NCBI RefSeq assembly: GCF_004341445.1
Contig: NZ_SLXV01000004.1
Coordinates: forward strand, 1 to 64,000
Direction of reading: 5' to 3'
Source: Baia soyae
Lineage (GTDB): Bacteria > Bacillota > Bacilli > Thermoactinomycetales > Thermoactinomycetaceae
Length of the DNA: 64,000 nucleotides
Shown here: positions 44,454-49,549 of the stretch, piece after piece
How positions within the stretch are numbered: the stretch's first letter is position 1
Layout of the letters: every line of letters starts with the position of its first letter
Notes under the pieces: generated by a model
Told to the model about the DNA's origin: nothing
What the model saw: only the letters and a program-made list of their open reading frames with translations
Databases searched by the model: none
Program-made: the position numbers and the translations under genes

Positions 44454-45047
44454 TTACTGTTTCGAGTTCGAAGTGGTAAGTGAAACAAATTTCCTATTTT
44501 TATAGAAATAATCGACTCCTGATACAACCGTAATCATCACCGCCAGCCATTTGGCGATCAAGGCAAACGGAATAGCATACTCAGCAAACGGAATATTGTT
44601 TAACATCAGCGCCACGATTGCCACGATCTGAATGATGGTTTTCGCTTTCCCCAATGCGCTAGCAGCGATAACTTTCCCTTCCACTGCTCCAATCAAACGC
44701 AATCCTGTAACAGCAAACTCTCGACTAATAATGATAATAGCCATCCATGCCTCTAATCGATTCATCTCTACGAGTGAAATGAGTGCGGCTGTAATTAATA
44801 GCTTATCTGCTAGAGGATCAAGAAATTTCCCGAGATTGGTTACTATTTTATTCTTTCGAGCTATATAGCCGTCCAAACCATCTGTAACAGCCGCTAGAAC
44901 AAATACCAATGTCGCAATCAATTCACTCACTGTTATCGTGACTTGACCAAATTGTATCGATCCAAGATCAAAACGAACAAGTAAAAAGATCATGACCACG
45001 GGAACAAGAAAAATACGTGCCATTGTTATCTTGTTGGCTACGTTCAC
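44454..45047 (-). CDS. pgsA: CDP-diacylglycerol--glycerol-3-phosphate 3-phosphatidyltransferase
   Basis: Committed step of phosphatidylglycerol synthesis in the membrane. The CDP-alcohol phosphotransferase motif DGLDGYIARKN...GKFLDPLADK (near 60-85) is intact. Four to five membrane helices in 197 residues. GTG start (45047) with AGGAGG eight bases upstream. First gene of pgsA-cinA-helicase, with a promoter at 45219-45248. Confidence 0.95.
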   Translation of the reverse strand: MNVANKITMARIFLVPVVMIFLLVRFDLGSIQFGQVTITVSELIATLVFVLAAVTDGLDGYIARKNKIVTNLGKFLDPLADKLLITAALISLVEMNRLEAWMAIIIISREFAVTGLRLIGAVEGKVIAASALGKAKTIIQIVAIVALMLNNIPFAEYAIPFALIAKWLAVMITVVSGVDYFYKNRKFVSLTTSNSKQ

Positions 45048-45285: not shown

Positions 45286-45882
45286 TTAATCAACTAAGAA
45301 AAATCGATATGATTGAGCGCTTTTCGTATTGGATGTATCAATTTGAATTCCATTTACTTTTAATTGAACTTGATCAGGATTTTCGATAGTTACATACAAC
45401 TCTTTTTTATCTTCTATCTTTTCTACATTATTTGCTGAAAGTTTCCCCTCTTTTAGCGGTGTTCCTTTCGATGAACCGCGATACACCTTAAAAGAAGCAC
45501 TACTCTTACTTGAAAGAGAAACCTCTACTTTGCCTACATTACCTAAGCGATATTGCTCACCAGAGTCTTTCCCTTCGGAATGAGGTTGCAATTCTATTTC
45601 CGGTCGACTCGGATTACTTTTACCGATTTCCATTTCAGTGGGGACAGGTGGAGACTTAGTCACTTGATTCGGTGAACCTCCTTTGAAGGCATAAAAACCA
45701 ACTGGAATAGCCAAAGCCACAAGCGCTACACCCAACCATCCGAACCAAGGGACTGGCTTCTTTTTTATCTTTTGAGCATGTTTTTTTCTTCTACTTACGA
45801 ACTGACTTGAGATTTGTTGTGATGATGACTTTTGCTCCATGTCTACCATAGCTCTGAAGATGTCCTCCCATCTACTCTCCAT
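45286..45882 (-). CDS. RodZ-like membrane protein without HTH domain
   Basis: Short basic cytoplasmic part (SRRKKHAQKIKKKPVPW), one membrane helix (WFGWLGVALVALAIPVGFYAF), then an extracytoplasmic region. Its last 90 residues (GKVEVSLSSKSSASFKVYRG...QVQLKVNGIQIDTS...YRFFLVD) resemble the C-terminal beta domain of the adjacent RodZ-like protein (gene at 45964). The N-terminal helix-turn-helix is missing. The frame is open to 45948, but that part runs through the upstream terminator (45915-45940). I use ATG 45882; ATG 45849 is also possible, and neither has a good ribosome site. It is probably a truncated paralogue of its neighbour. Confidence 0.65.
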   Translation of the reverse strand: MESRWEDIFRAMVDMEQKSSSQQISSQFVSRRKKHAQKIKKKPVPWFGWLGVALVALAIPVGFYAFKGGSPNQVTKSPPVPTEMEIGKSNPSRPEIELQPHSEGKDSGEQYRLGNVGKVEVSLSSKSSASFKVYRGSSKGTPLKEGKLSANNVEKIEDKKELYVTIENPDQVQLKVNGIQIDTSNTKSAQSYRFFLVD

Positions 45883-45914
45883 TCTGATGTCAGTATATCC
45901 TAGGAAAAACAAAA

Positions 45915-45940
45915 GAAAAAGCCTGTTAAAAGGCTTTTTC
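45915..45940 (-). terminator. Terminator between two RodZ-like genes
   Basis: GAAAAAGCCT and AGGCTTTTTC are exact complements around GTTAAA (minus-strand loop TTTAAC); TTTTG follows on the minus strand. Confidence 0.85.
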
Positions 45941-45963
45941 AGGAACATTTTTTAACCATCTTA

Positions 45964-47589
45964 TTATTTTTTCACTAAAAATGTAAGGTCTTTAACTGGA
46001 TTCACTTTATTAATGGATATATTTCCATTTGCCATAATCTCTACGTCATCTGGCTTGGTGATGGAAATGGTTAACTTATTCGCATCTCCAGAAAACGTAT
46101 ATAAAATCTCTGGGGCTTTCGGATATTTGGTACTCAAAACAAACCCAGGTTTAATATCTTTACCCCCTGCATCTTTTAGTACAATTTGTCCACTAGTAGA
46201 AGCGCCTTGTTTTAATTTGAAAGAGAGCTTCAGTTCATTCCCCTTCGAGACATGATACGTTCCAGCACCTGATTTTTCGATCTCAACAGGACCCGTTTCA
46301 GTTGAAGGCGGTGTATCAGGGGTCGATTCCTTTGCTTCACTTCCTGGTTTCGTTGTTTGTTCAGTAGTGGCTGGCTTAGAAGTATTTGTTTTCTTAGCAT
46401 CATCTCCACCAGAAAAAGTATATATCAATACTCCAACAACTAGCACCAAGAGTCCAGCAGCTCCCGCAATCCAGTACCATTTCACAGGAAAATCAACTTT
46501 CCACTTAGACTTAGAACTACGACTCGTTTTCATCGCACTACGGCTCAATGTTTTGAGCGATTCTACATCTTGTGAGTAGCGTGAGTCTAGTTTTTCATCA
46601 CGTGAAGAGCCAAATTTCTCACGACGTGTCATGATAGTATCGGAGAGCGGAACCAAACCTGTCTCCAACTCACGACCTACGTCCAATTTAGGATCGGTTT
46701 GATTTCTTGTGTCGAATCGAGCAGTACGTTCAAACCGAGGATCACGTTTCGTTTCTAGGCGAGAGCTCGATTCCATCTTTTTCGATCCAGATCCAGGCAT
46801 GGTAGACGATAAATTCGTTGTCCCAAGCTTTTGATCTAATCCTTGGTCCTTTATCATCTCGAACGGTACCGTTTCCTGTCCTACTAGGCCTATCTTGGTA
46901 GTAGACGCAGAAGGAACCACTGTTGATGACGTTTGGGTGGTTTCCTCGGAACGAACCTTGTGATTCTTAGCGATCGTCATAGATTGTTCGCGTAAAGTAC
47001 GACTAGGACGATTAACTCCTGAACTCTCTAGTGCCTTCATCCTTTGTGTTTGTGCTGGATTAAATGGTGGCATCGTCTGAGTTTTTCCAGGCTCGAACGA
47101 TGGATTCGTAGCAGATAGACTCTGAGTTTGATCGATTGCACGCAGTTTCTGTGTTTGTGCAGTCCGATCTATTACCGGCTTGGTCTGTATTTGCGTGTTA
47201 GCACTAGGCTTCGCAATCGTAAGTGCTGTTTGAACTTTAATACGATTTGAACTTGCAGGCTTCTGGATTGTCGTCTGACTCAAGGAAAAATGACCCGTTT
47301 GCTGTCCTACAGCAGGCATAACAGCCGTATTTTGTTGAACTCCATACCGCACAGCCTGCTCTTCTTTTCGATAGTGACGCAAAATATGATGAGGTTCTAC
47401 CTTGACTTGATTGGCATAAGAACGCAGATAGGTCCTCACATAAAAAGGGCTCGGTAGTTTATCAAAGTCACCATTTTCAATCGCTATAAGAAAAGGTTTT
47501 TGGATCTTTGTTTTTTCTTGTAATTGGTCGAGGGACAGTCCTATCGACTCCCGGGCCTGCCGAAGATAATGTCCAATCTCTTCAGACAT
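45964..47589 (-). CDS. RodZ-like protein (HTH, membrane helix, extracytoplasmic beta domain)
   Basis: Residues 1-70 form a RodZ-type helix-turn-helix (IGHYLRQARESIGLSLDQLQEKTKIQKPFLIAIENGDF, FYVRTYLRSYA). A long linker of about 280 residues is rich in Thr, Gln, Arg and Ser. A membrane helix (WYWIAGAAGLLVLVVGVLIYTF) is followed by a Thr/Pro/Glu linker and a C-terminal DUF4115-like beta domain. RodZ links MreB to the cell envelope in rod-shape control. The start at 47589 has GGGAGG eight bases before. Larger than usual RodZ (about 300). Second of three related genes in a row. Confidence 0.85.
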   Translation of the reverse strand: MSEEIGHYLRQARESIGLSLDQLQEKTKIQKPFLIAIENGDFDKLPSPFYVRTYLRSYANQVKVEPHHILRHYRKEEQAVRYGVQQNTAVMPAVGQQTGHFSLSQTTIQKPASSNRIKVQTALTIAKPSANTQIQTKPVIDRTAQTQKLRAIDQTQSLSATNPSFEPGKTQTMPPFNPAQTQRMKALESSGVNRPSRTLREQSMTIAKNHKVRSEETTQTSSTVVPSASTTKIGLVGQETVPFEMIKDQGLDQKLGTTNLSSTMPGSGSKKMESSSRLETKRDPRFERTARFDTRNQTDPKLDVGRELETGLVPLSDTIMTRREKFGSSRDEKLDSRYSQDVESLKTLSRSAMKTSRSSKSKWKVDFPVKWYWIAGAAGLLVLVVGVLIYTFSGGDDAKKTNTSKPATTEQTTKPGSEAKESTPDTPPSTETGPVEIEKSGAGTYHVSKGNELKLSFKLKQGASTSGQIVLKDAGGKDIKPGFVLSTKYPKAPEILYTFSGDANKLTISITKPDDVEIMANGNISINKVNPVKDLTFLVKK

Positions 47590-47724
47590 CCCAGTCACCT
47601 CCCAAAAGGTTTACAAACAAATGCTATATACAAGAAGCTATTTTGTTCTTCAACCTGACTGTTTGTTATTTCAAAAAATACGCATAAATTTGATACAAGC
47701 ATATCAAAATACGTATACTCTGTC

Positions 47725-47749
47725 AAAAAAGCTCTCTTGGCAAGAGCTT
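47725..47749 (-). terminator. Terminator behind the first RodZ/YmfM-like gene
   Basis: On the minus strand AGCTCTT, loop GCC, AAGAG-A-GCT then TTTTTT. Confidence 0.7.
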
Positions 47750-47772
47750 GAACGGTTTTAAGTCTTATGTAT

Positions 47773-48585
47773 CTAAGAGCTCACTCGCAAATAAAGAACA
47801 TAGAGAGCTGCAACCGCAAGAACAGCTGCCCAAAACAGTAAAAATTTCGTGTAAAACGTGAATTTCTTTTCTGATTTCCCTTTTCGCTCTCTCGAACGGG
47901 GTTCTAAACTCGGTACAAGCTCTTTTTCTTCTGTTGAGCGTTTTTGGCGATCGCTACGTGATAAGCTTTTCAAATTTTGTAAAGCCTGTAGCTCCTTAGA
48001 ACGAGGACTTTGTTTCGTTGCAGGTTGCATAGAACGCTCTGATGGTACGACTGTCGGTAATTTACTCGATTGACTTAATCGCTCCGCTCTCTCTGGATCT
48101 CGGCGTCTCATCGGGCGATTAGGTGAAGTAGTAGTAACAGCCTGTTCTTGCTCCACCTCTTGCAAATGATTTTCAATACGTTTTACATCCCAGCGAACCG
48201 TATTCCCAAATGAACGAGTAGTAGCAAGCTCTTTCTCTGGTTGCCAGCGATTTTCGGCTACTGCTGTACTTTGCTCCGACATGCTAGATAAACGTTGATT
48301 ACGGGGCCTTTCAGAAGCAACTGAGACACTTTGTCTTGCATTTTCTTTAGCAGATTGTGCCTGCCCCTGCCGCACTTGATGTAATATTTTATGTGGATCC
48401 AGACCTAGCGATAGCGCATATGTCCGAATATAAGACCTTACATATATGGAACCTGGCAACAGGTGGAATTGACCATTTTCAATTGCTGATAGATATTGCT
48501 TTTGAATTTTAGTATGGGCTTCTAATTCTTCTAAACTAATGCCAAGAGATTCACGAGTGCTTCTAAGCTGTTGTCCTACTCCCAT
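47773..48585 (-). CDS. ymfM: YmfM/RodZ-like protein (HTH and C-terminal membrane helix)
   Basis: The N-terminal helix-turn-helix (VGQQLRSTRESLGISLEELEAHTKIQKQYLSAIENGQF, IYVRSYIRTYA) is closely similar to that of the next gene. A charged low-complexity linker follows, then a membrane helix at the very C-terminus (FYTKFLLFWAAVLAVAALYVLYL). The extracytoplasmic domain is absent. The start at 48585 has AGGGAGG eight bases before, in the same context as the neighbouring paralogue. Its position between ymfK and pgsA is that of ymfM in Bacillus. It probably takes part in cell-shape control. Confidence 0.85.
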   Translation of the reverse strand: MGVGQQLRSTRESLGISLEELEAHTKIQKQYLSAIENGQFHLLPGSIYVRSYIRTYALSLGLDPHKILHQVRQGQAQSAKENARQSVSVASERPRNQRLSSMSEQSTAVAENRWQPEKELATTRSFGNTVRWDVKRIENHLQEVEQEQAVTTTSPNRPMRRRDPERAERLSQSSKLPTVVPSERSMQPATKQSPRSKELQALQNLKSLSRSDRQKRSTEEKELVPSLEPRSRERKGKSEKKFTFYTKFLLFWAAVLAVAALYVLYLRVSS

Positions 48586-48651
48586 TATGGTCACCTCCCT
48601 GAGCTAATTATTGGTTTCTCTTTAGGAAGCTTCTTTCCCTTCAGAACATCA

Positions 48652-49422
48652 CTAAAACATGGAATGACGTTCGTCCATCAGATCGTATACAATCTCTTCA
48701 TCAGGATGATTTCTAAGCTCAATCATATAGTTGAAATCTTCTAGTCGATACTCCGAGTTTCTAACAAAGATATCAGGGTGTTCAATCACCTTTGTCGTCT
48801 CCATCCGCATCACTTCTCGAAGCAAACAAACATGATCTTCTGAAAAACGGCGTGTAGAGACGATACCATCTATTATGTAAACATGGTCAGTCGAAAGTTC
48901 ATTCGCGGCTAATTGTGTGCGAATCGTTTGTCGTAAGAGTGTTGAGGATAGAAAAGACCACCGTTTATTAGCACATACGCTAGATGCCACAATGGATTCT
49001 GTCTTTCCAACACGCGGCATTCCTCGAATTCCAATTAGCTGATGTCCTTTTTTCTTCATTTGTTCTGCGAGAAGATCTACTAAAATACCGATCTCATCTC
49101 GAATAAATCGGTATGTCTTAATATCGTCACTAGAGAGTTCAACATACTTTCCATGCCTCACTGCAAGACGATCGGTCACATTAGGCTTGCGTAAAGCAGT
49201 TACATGGATATGATCCATCCGATGTAAGATTTGGCTTAAAGCCTCTATTTTTTCAGGTTTACTTGTGCGCAGGATCAGACCACGACGATCATTGGTTACC
49301 CCGTTAATCGTCACAATATTAATCTTTAACATCCCGAGTAGTGACGCCAAATCCCCCAACAAACCAGGACGGTTTTTATTCTTGTGAATTTGATATTCAA
49401 GATACCATTCGTGATCTTCCAT
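48652..49422 (-). CDS. ymfK: YmfK-family protein (DUF3388)
   Basis: About 256 residues. The N-terminal part (LEYQIHKNKNRPGLLGDLASLLGMLKINIVTINGV) looks like an ACT domain. A P-loop-like GIRGMPRVGKTES lies near residue 128, followed by VYIIDGIV, which resembles a Walker B strand. It matches the DUF3388 family of Bacillales. Start ATG 49422 after GAGGTG; a frame to 49485 exists without a ribosome site. It sits between ymfJ and ymfM as in Bacillus. The function is unknown. Confidence 0.88.
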   Translation of the reverse strand: MEDHEWYLEYQIHKNKNRPGLLGDLASLLGMLKINIVTINGVTNDRRGLILRTSKPEKIEALSQILHRMDHIHVTALRKPNVTDRLAVRHGKYVELSSDDIKTYRFIRDEIGILVDLLAEQMKKKGHQLIGIRGMPRVGKTESIVASSVCANKRWSFLSSTLLRQTIRTQLAANELSTDHVYIIDGIVSTRRFSEDHVCLLREVMRMETTKVIEHPDIFVRNSEYRLEDFNYMIELRNHPDEEIVYDLMDERHSMF

Positions 49423-49549
49423 TTCACACCTCATTCTCTCATTCAGACACAAGTGTAAACGAATGTTTTTTACAGTATAGCACATACATCTTTCGGAACG
49501 AAGAAAGATTCGTGACTAATTCCTTACATAAAAGGCGTTGTCCGTTAAA

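Follow-up and report, generated by a model that had tools for sequence, protein, structure and literature searches.

What can three consecutive RodZ-type genes do in a cell that has no MreB? RodZ has been studied as an adaptor of MreB. The question is posed here by a 64,000-nucleotide stretch of Baia soyae DNA (RefSeq assembly GCF_004341445.1, contig NZ_SLXV01000004.1, positions 1 to 64,000, forward strand; referred to as the window), for which a first-pass annotation made from the letters alone had described three successive RodZ/YmfM-type membrane proteins in the place of ymfM and had suggested that they might link MreB to the cell wall in a different way during hyphal or sporulating growth. 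Open reading frames (ORFs), domains, and the flanking ymfK and pgsA genes bear out the trio (genes A, B, and C). The link to MreB does not hold in this organism, since searches of the genome and of its radC-minC neighborhood recovered no mreB, mreC, mreD, or rodA.

Judged by gene order and phylogeny, the trio is a reduced form of a four-gene array (P1 to P4), and the earlier description, which covered only that reduced form, is too narrow. The explanation favored here, at a probability of roughly 60%, is that P4 is the MreB adaptor, that P1 to P3 serve another, MreB-independent partner, and that the reduced array has persisted after loss of the Rod complex. It draws on four observations: the array itself, losses of genes and domains, a residue pattern at MreB-contact positions, and purifying selection on all three window genes.

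The RodZ array at the ymfM locus

Loci were read gene by gene in 42 genomes from the GTDB order around the window genome, representing six families (f1 to f6) and 27 genera. The order takes in Thermoactinomyces, Lihuaxuella, Melghirimyces, Marininema, and Marinithermofilum; Thermoactinomycetaceae is the NCBI taxonomy placement for the two genera looked up, and Thermoactinomyces sp. DSM 45892 (G002) belongs to the window genus. RodZ-family genes at the ymf locus numbered four, in tandem, in 23 of the 42 genomes, three in 16, and one in the 2 genomes of f6; the locus of G025 was too fragmented to count, and its P3 lacked a helix-turn-helix (HTH) domain on its contig. The array was common to five of the six families, and when 23 genomes of the family were searched for HTH_25, most gave four matches at a single locus. 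From the class Bacilli, 398 genomes were drawn evenly, with the 15 best first-look candidates scored per genome, and 38 of them belonged to this order. Among the 360 outside it, HTH_25 genes numbered one in 350 genomes, two in 5, and none in 5, and no genome had three or more. Genomes of f3 (G026 to G035) carried one or two additional HTH_25 genes, of approximately 350 to 600 amino acids, outside the ymf locus. P1 of Marinithermofilum abyssi (G032; L082, 4645-5842, array strand) was broken into two ORFs, by a frameshift or a sequencing error.

Genes A, B, and C, all on the minus strand (Table 1), are placed at the ymfM locus because they have ymfK, ymfJ, ymfI, and M16 peptidase genes upstream and pgsA and cinA downstream. 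A encodes an HTH_25 domain (E = 3.3e-22) and a single transmembrane helix at residues 251 to 269, after which 3 residues remain, so that hydropathy leaves no outer domain. B encodes HTH_25 (E = 2e-21), a long linker, and a single transmembrane helix (residues 377 to 395) followed by 148 residues; the outer domain had no Pfam RodZ_C match, yet it was homologous to RodZ_C in profile-profile comparison. C has one transmembrane helix, with 131 residues from the helix to the protein end, and matched RodZ_C (PF13464, formerly DUF4115) above the gathering score (E = 1.7e-6); no HTH was detected in it by Pfam search or HTH alignment. The division of parts among the three proteins, and the N-terminal HTH sequence shared by A and B, were as first described.

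In a tree of HTH domains (157 rows, 67 columns), P1, P2, and P3 formed one clade (support, 98/95) that excluded P4, the single-copy f6 genes, and Bacillaceae YmfM. A grouped with P2 rows and B with P3 rows. The long-branched Staphylococcus aureus YmfM sequence was placed within P3, which is taken for an artifact, and a long branch also makes the paralogue labels of G009 uncertain. C was assigned to P4 because it adjoins pgsA and its outer domain matches the P4 profile (138 bits, versus at most 50 bits against other profiles in hmmsearch, C itself being a row of the P4 profile). Profiles of the outer domains of P1, P2, P3, P4, and Bacillaceae were homologous in all ten pairings (hhalign probability, 98.4 to 99.7). 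Predicted structures of the B and C outer domains were all-beta, with approximately ten strands; nine are reported for the Bacillus subtilis RodZ ectodomain in a review (PMC6946637). A fold search of the PDB with these two domains gave no match at an E value of 0.001 or better. The closest solved relatives of A and B were the S. aureus YmfM HTH (3fym) and the Thermotoga maritima RodZ-MreB complex (2wus), over the HTH only (E = 1.8e-11 to 1.7e-4).

The first-pass annotation had proposed that A and B arose by duplication with later loss of complementary parts. The outer domains proved homologous to RodZ_C and the HTHs paralogous, contrary to the outcome which that annotation had named as refuting it, and complementary parts have been lost. 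The two genes did not, however, arise as a pair of local duplicates with C as a third: A corresponds to P2, B to P3, and C to P4. A recent local duplication giving A and B was rejected, as several families show P2 and P3 as distinct groups. Domain losses were recurrent in the order. P2 and/or P1 had no outer domain by hydropathy in several f1 genera, including the MreB-positive G017 and G018, and P4 lacked its HTH in three genera (G000 to G002, G012, G037, and G038, with G000 being the window genome). The P4 gene was absent from G010. P1 was lost from the window genus, and only two strong HTH_25 matches occurred genome-wide. Among three congeners (G000, G001, and G002), ratios of nonsynonymous to synonymous substitution (dN/dS) were 0.16 to 0.27 for A, B, and C, and all three genes are therefore under purifying selection.

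Loss of mreBCD and its partners

MreB was present in 24 of the 42 genomes in a strict search. MreD was found in the same 24, as was MreC, with one additional match below the cutoff in G022. The strict search found no MreB in the window genome, where a relaxed search returned only weak actin-fold matches. The minD neighborhoods of all 18 MreB-negative genomes, including the window genome, had radC directly followed by minC, with mreBCD gone from between them; in two MreB-positive genomes examined alongside, mreBCD stood in that place. Assembly gaps were rejected as the source of the absence because the radC-minC junction was intact across the site in 18/18 genomes, among them two that were only about 67% complete. 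On a six-protein tree, the best estimate was 5 changes for MreB absence, and well-supported branches forced at least 3.

Other wall-synthesis genes followed the same division. SEDS genes numbered three in 24/24 MreB-positive genomes and two in 16/16 near-complete MreB-negative genomes (1 and 0 in the two incomplete ones); extra SEDS matches in G040 were a single gene interrupted by an in-frame TAG (G040:C1:1335964-1337024). The extra SEDS gene of the MreB-positive G003 was RodA (TIGR02210, 378.6 bits against a cutoff of 336.7), and the two SEDS genes of the window genome scored as FtsW-type and SpoVE. The highest-scoring group of class-B penicillin-binding proteins (PBPs) (at least 105 bits), which we infer to be PBP2-type, was present in all 24 MreB-positive genomes and in 1 of the 18 MreB-negative genomes (G036). 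Taken as members of a Rod complex, MreC, MreD, RodA, and PBP2 were all missing from the window genome. The absent partner lowers the claim of an MreB-dependent function for A, B, and C, not their membership in the RodZ family, the RodZ of cocci being likewise without MreB.

Hyphal habit was unsupported as a driver of MreB loss, since Thermoactinomyces vulgaris (G018), a hyphal species, has MreB. DivIVA copy number did not differ visibly between the MreB-positive and MreB-negative groups. No common insert was found between minD and spoIVFA in MreB-negative genomes, and contents differed among the four examined: two sugar-type ABC permease-like genes in the window genome (L180:9023-10724, identified by eye) and other, unrelated genes in G012, G013, and G021. 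The interval looks like an insertion hot spot. A bactofilin-like polymer-forming protein, likewise identified by eye, adjoins minD in the MreB-negative G012 (L187:10286-11123, minD strand).

MreB-contact residues and candidate functions

The substitutions Y53A and Y57A in T. maritima RodZ (F60A and Y64A in Escherichia coli) lower MreB binding, according to the review cited above (PMC6946637). The corresponding positions were located by alignment; P4 counts include rows that still have an HTH and leave out P4 of G004, which is cut by a contig end. Both aromatics were kept in P4 of 17/20 MreB-positive versus 0/12 MreB-negative genomes, and of the other MreB-negative P4 genes, the HTH was gone in 4 and the gene itself in 1. 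Among 34 P4 columns conserved in MreB-positive genomes, the drop in MreB-negative genomes was greatest at Y53 (0.90 to 0.25) and ranked fifth at Y57 (0.90 to 0.58); chance alone would give two named columns ranks this high in 6 of 561 draws (calculated by hand, phylogeny ignored). For the other paralogues, both aromatics were present in MreB-positive and MreB-negative genomes, respectively, in 22/22 and 15/15 (P1), 20/22 and 16/16 (P2), and 12/12 and 14/16 (P3). A and B have Tyr at both positions, and in C the positions are absent along with the HTH. The B HTH is invariant in amino-acid sequence among the three species of the window genus, which has no MreB.

Several results weigh against reading this pattern as the mark of a P4-specific adaptor. 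P4 was damaged in four MreB-positive lineages (an aromatic lost in G016, G031, and G034 and the HTH lost in G037/G038), and so MreB either does not strictly require P4 or has a substitute in another paralogue. Only 3 independent pairs lay on well-supported branches (5 on all branches), none of them opposite in direction, which is too few to reach 0.05. HTH scores of P1 were also lower in MreB-negative genomes (P = 0.0089), and faster evolution in general may account for some of the P4 change. In f2, Y57 is lost from both P4 and P3, with Y53 retained in P4. The aromatics of P1 to P3 may be kept for folding, not binding.

One alternative takes decay of the P4 HTH as only a product of faster general evolution in MreB-negative lineages, uninformative about which paralogue bound MreB. 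The fall in P1 scores agrees with this, as do the longer branches of several MreB-negative genera; however, the top P4 drop is at a published MreB-contact residue, and in P1 to P3 Y53 does not drop at all and Y57 drops by no more than 0.12; this explanation is unlikely. P1 to P3 could instead be membrane-bound XRE-type regulators that bind DNA or RNA, not morphogenetic adaptors, with A as the clearest case, given that HTH_25 overlaps the XRE-type HTH_3 and HTH_19 models and that A and several P1 and P2 proteins lack an outer domain. Such a role is improbable: the part that is kept is the RodZ helix-4 motif, not a DNA-recognition helix, and the E. coli RodZ HTH is described as not binding DNA (PMC6946637).

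It is quite unlikely that the genes are a decaying remnant, with RodZ domains lost stepwise and without replacement function once the Rod complex had gone. The domain losses in A and C, the loss of P1 from the window genus, and the loss of the P4 gene in G010 would fit such decay, but the dN/dS values of A, B, and C would not, nor would the key aromatics kept by P1 to P3 in 45 of 47 MreB-negative cases, nor f2, which has no MreB and keeps the array, complete in its two near-complete genomes. Replacement of MreB by a divergent actin-like filament, bound by the P1 to P3 HTHs through the same aromatic surface, is distinctly improbable, for although those aromatics are exactly kept and every genome has distant actin-fold matches (in the window genome, for example, G000:C26:21805-22551, open frame of 536 residues), equally low-scoring matches, in the putative DnaK/FtsA range, occur in MreB-positive and MreB-negative genomes alike.

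Under the favored explanation, in which P4 is the MreB adaptor and P1 to P3 have another partner, the four-RodZ tandem array arose within the order to which Thermoactinomyces belongs. P4, adjoining pgsA, would be the canonical YmfM/RodZ, with an HTH that tethers MreB and an outer domain that reaches the wall machinery, and the HTHs of the separate P1 to P3 clade would act for some cytoplasmic protein that is not MreB. When mreBCD, rodA, and the PBP2-type PBP were lost in the window lineage, the MreB-binding HTH of P4 would have become useless and been shed, so that C is now an outer domain with a membrane anchor; P2 (A) lost its outer domain and persists as a tail-anchored HTH, and P3 (B) stayed complete. 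A may supply the cytoplasmic half, C the outer half, and B both, with complementary halves working together.

The most likely partners of P1 to P3 would be septal proteins of division or sporulation (FtsZ, SpoIIE, or MinJ), because RodZ elsewhere contacts these proteins. E. coli RodZ binds FtsZ via its cytoplasmic domain (PMC6946637), and contacts of B. subtilis RodZ with SpoIIE (PMC4945075) and MinJ (PMC5778138) are reported. With a septal partner, the array would be a scaffold coupling septal proteins to the remaining FtsW/SpoVE-PBP pairs. A broader version, which we regard as doubtful, would make the array a scaffold for growth without actin: once MreBCD, RodA, and PBP2 had repeatedly been lost, P1 to P3 would have taken on the task of connecting positioning proteins of the cytoplasm with wall synthesis of the FtsW/SpoVE type in hyphal and spore-forming cells, and the decay of P4 would mark, residue by residue, the former MreB adaptor.

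Locus features and comparison with known systems

TABLE 1 Genes, domains, and terminator-like elements of the RodZ locus in the window
Feature	Position	Strand	Basis or remark
Gene A (P2 of the array); tail-anchored HTH protein, no outer domain	47773..48585	-	ORF called 47773-48594, 273 aa; ATG at 48585
HTH_25 of A; Tyr at both MreB-contact positions (Y53/Y57 of T. maritima RodZ)	48382..48582	-	Domain search and alignment
Membrane helix of A, C-terminal	47788..47844	-	Hydropathy, Kyte-Doolittle 2.45
Gene B (P3 of the array); complete, with HTH, long linker, transmembrane helix, and outer domain	45964..47589	-	ORF called 45964-47598, 544 aa; ATG at 47589
HTH_25 of B; zero amino-acid changes among 3 species of the genus	47377..47580	-	Domain search, alignment
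Membrane helix of B	46414..46470	-	Hydropathy
Outer domain of B, all-beta, RodZ_C-related	45973..46284	-	Profile-profile comparison and structure model
Gene C, P4; Bacillus YmfM/RodZ orthologue by position, HTH domain lost	45286..45849	-	ORF called 45286-45948, 220 aa as called
Membrane helix of C	45682..45744	-	Hydropathy and structure model (helix 36-56)
RodZ_C outer domain of C, all-beta	45295..45600	-	Pfam match; model pLDDT (predicted local distance difference test) above 90 over most of domain
pgsA, conserved downstream neighbor, anchors locus	44454..45047	-	Domain search and locus comparison
ymfK (DUF3388), conserved upstream neighbor, anchors locus	48652..49485	-	Domain search and locus comparison
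Terminator-like hairpin and T-run after A	47729..47749	-	Fold, 8-bp hairpin; absent from terminator scan list
Intrinsic-terminator-like hairpin after B, overlapping called start of C	45915..45940	-	Scan and fold, 10-bp hairpin and T-run

A terminator after each of A and B, with possible separate regulation, had also been proposed. A hairpin with a T-run does follow each gene, but terminators and promoters scanned in the region were not above the level of shuffled sequence, and separate transcription of A, B, and C is plausible. The called start of C sits inside the terminator of B; translation likely starts at ATG 45849, preceded by GGGAGG, for a product of 187 aa. The ribosome-binding context of P3 (window positions 47589-47610 and the same place in other P3 genes) was strongly conserved at the DNA level beyond the Shine-Dalgarno sequence, reading CAGGAGGTGGCTGGGGTGTCTGTCGA or close to it, and in some genomes CAGCC/GGCTG flanking that sequence could pair around it; translational control is possible. 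In f1 (G003 to G022), the P2-P3 gap was 39 to 494 bp, mostly above 120 bp, and the P1-P2 gap was mostly below 45 bp, which suggests that P3 is a separate transcription unit there.

MreBCD, RodA, and PBP2 were removed several times in this order and RodZ was kept in multiple copies. Relatives with the complete machine serve as controls, and the comparison separates MreB-dependent from MreB-independent RodZ functions by sequence, naming genes and residues. In a literature search covering few subscription papers, no tandem RodZ array outliving the Rod complex was found among the matches listed, nor was anything on multiple or tandem RodZ or on RodZ in MreB-less Thermoactinomycetaceae. RodZ without MreB is already known in cocci.

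Like RodZ/YmfM of B. subtilis and E. coli, the proteins of the array have HTH_25, one transmembrane helix, and a beta-rich RodZ_C outer domain and are encoded at the ymfK-pgsA locus; unlike those single proteins, they form an array of four tandem paralogues, of which A lacks the outer domain and C the HTH, in a cell with no MreB. The structures 3fym and 2wus resemble A and B only distantly, in the HTH, and the MreB partner seen in the latter is missing from the window genome. The MreB-less streptococci and staphylococci have a single RodZ, and the streptococci retain MreC, MreD, and RodA, with the PBP of RodA also present in these cocci. Two reports describe RodZ as kept without MreB in Streptococcus and Staphylococcus (PMC6946637, PMC10936418), as it is here, and the second gives MreC, MreD, and RodA as retained in S. 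aureus; here, by contrast, MreC, MreD, RodA, and its PBP are all gone and the array remains. In Neisseria and Moraxella (PMC4498754), mreBCD, the PBP2-type PBP, and rodA were lost together, as in the window lineage, but rodZ was lost too and the cells became cocci, whereas here the RodZ genes were kept.

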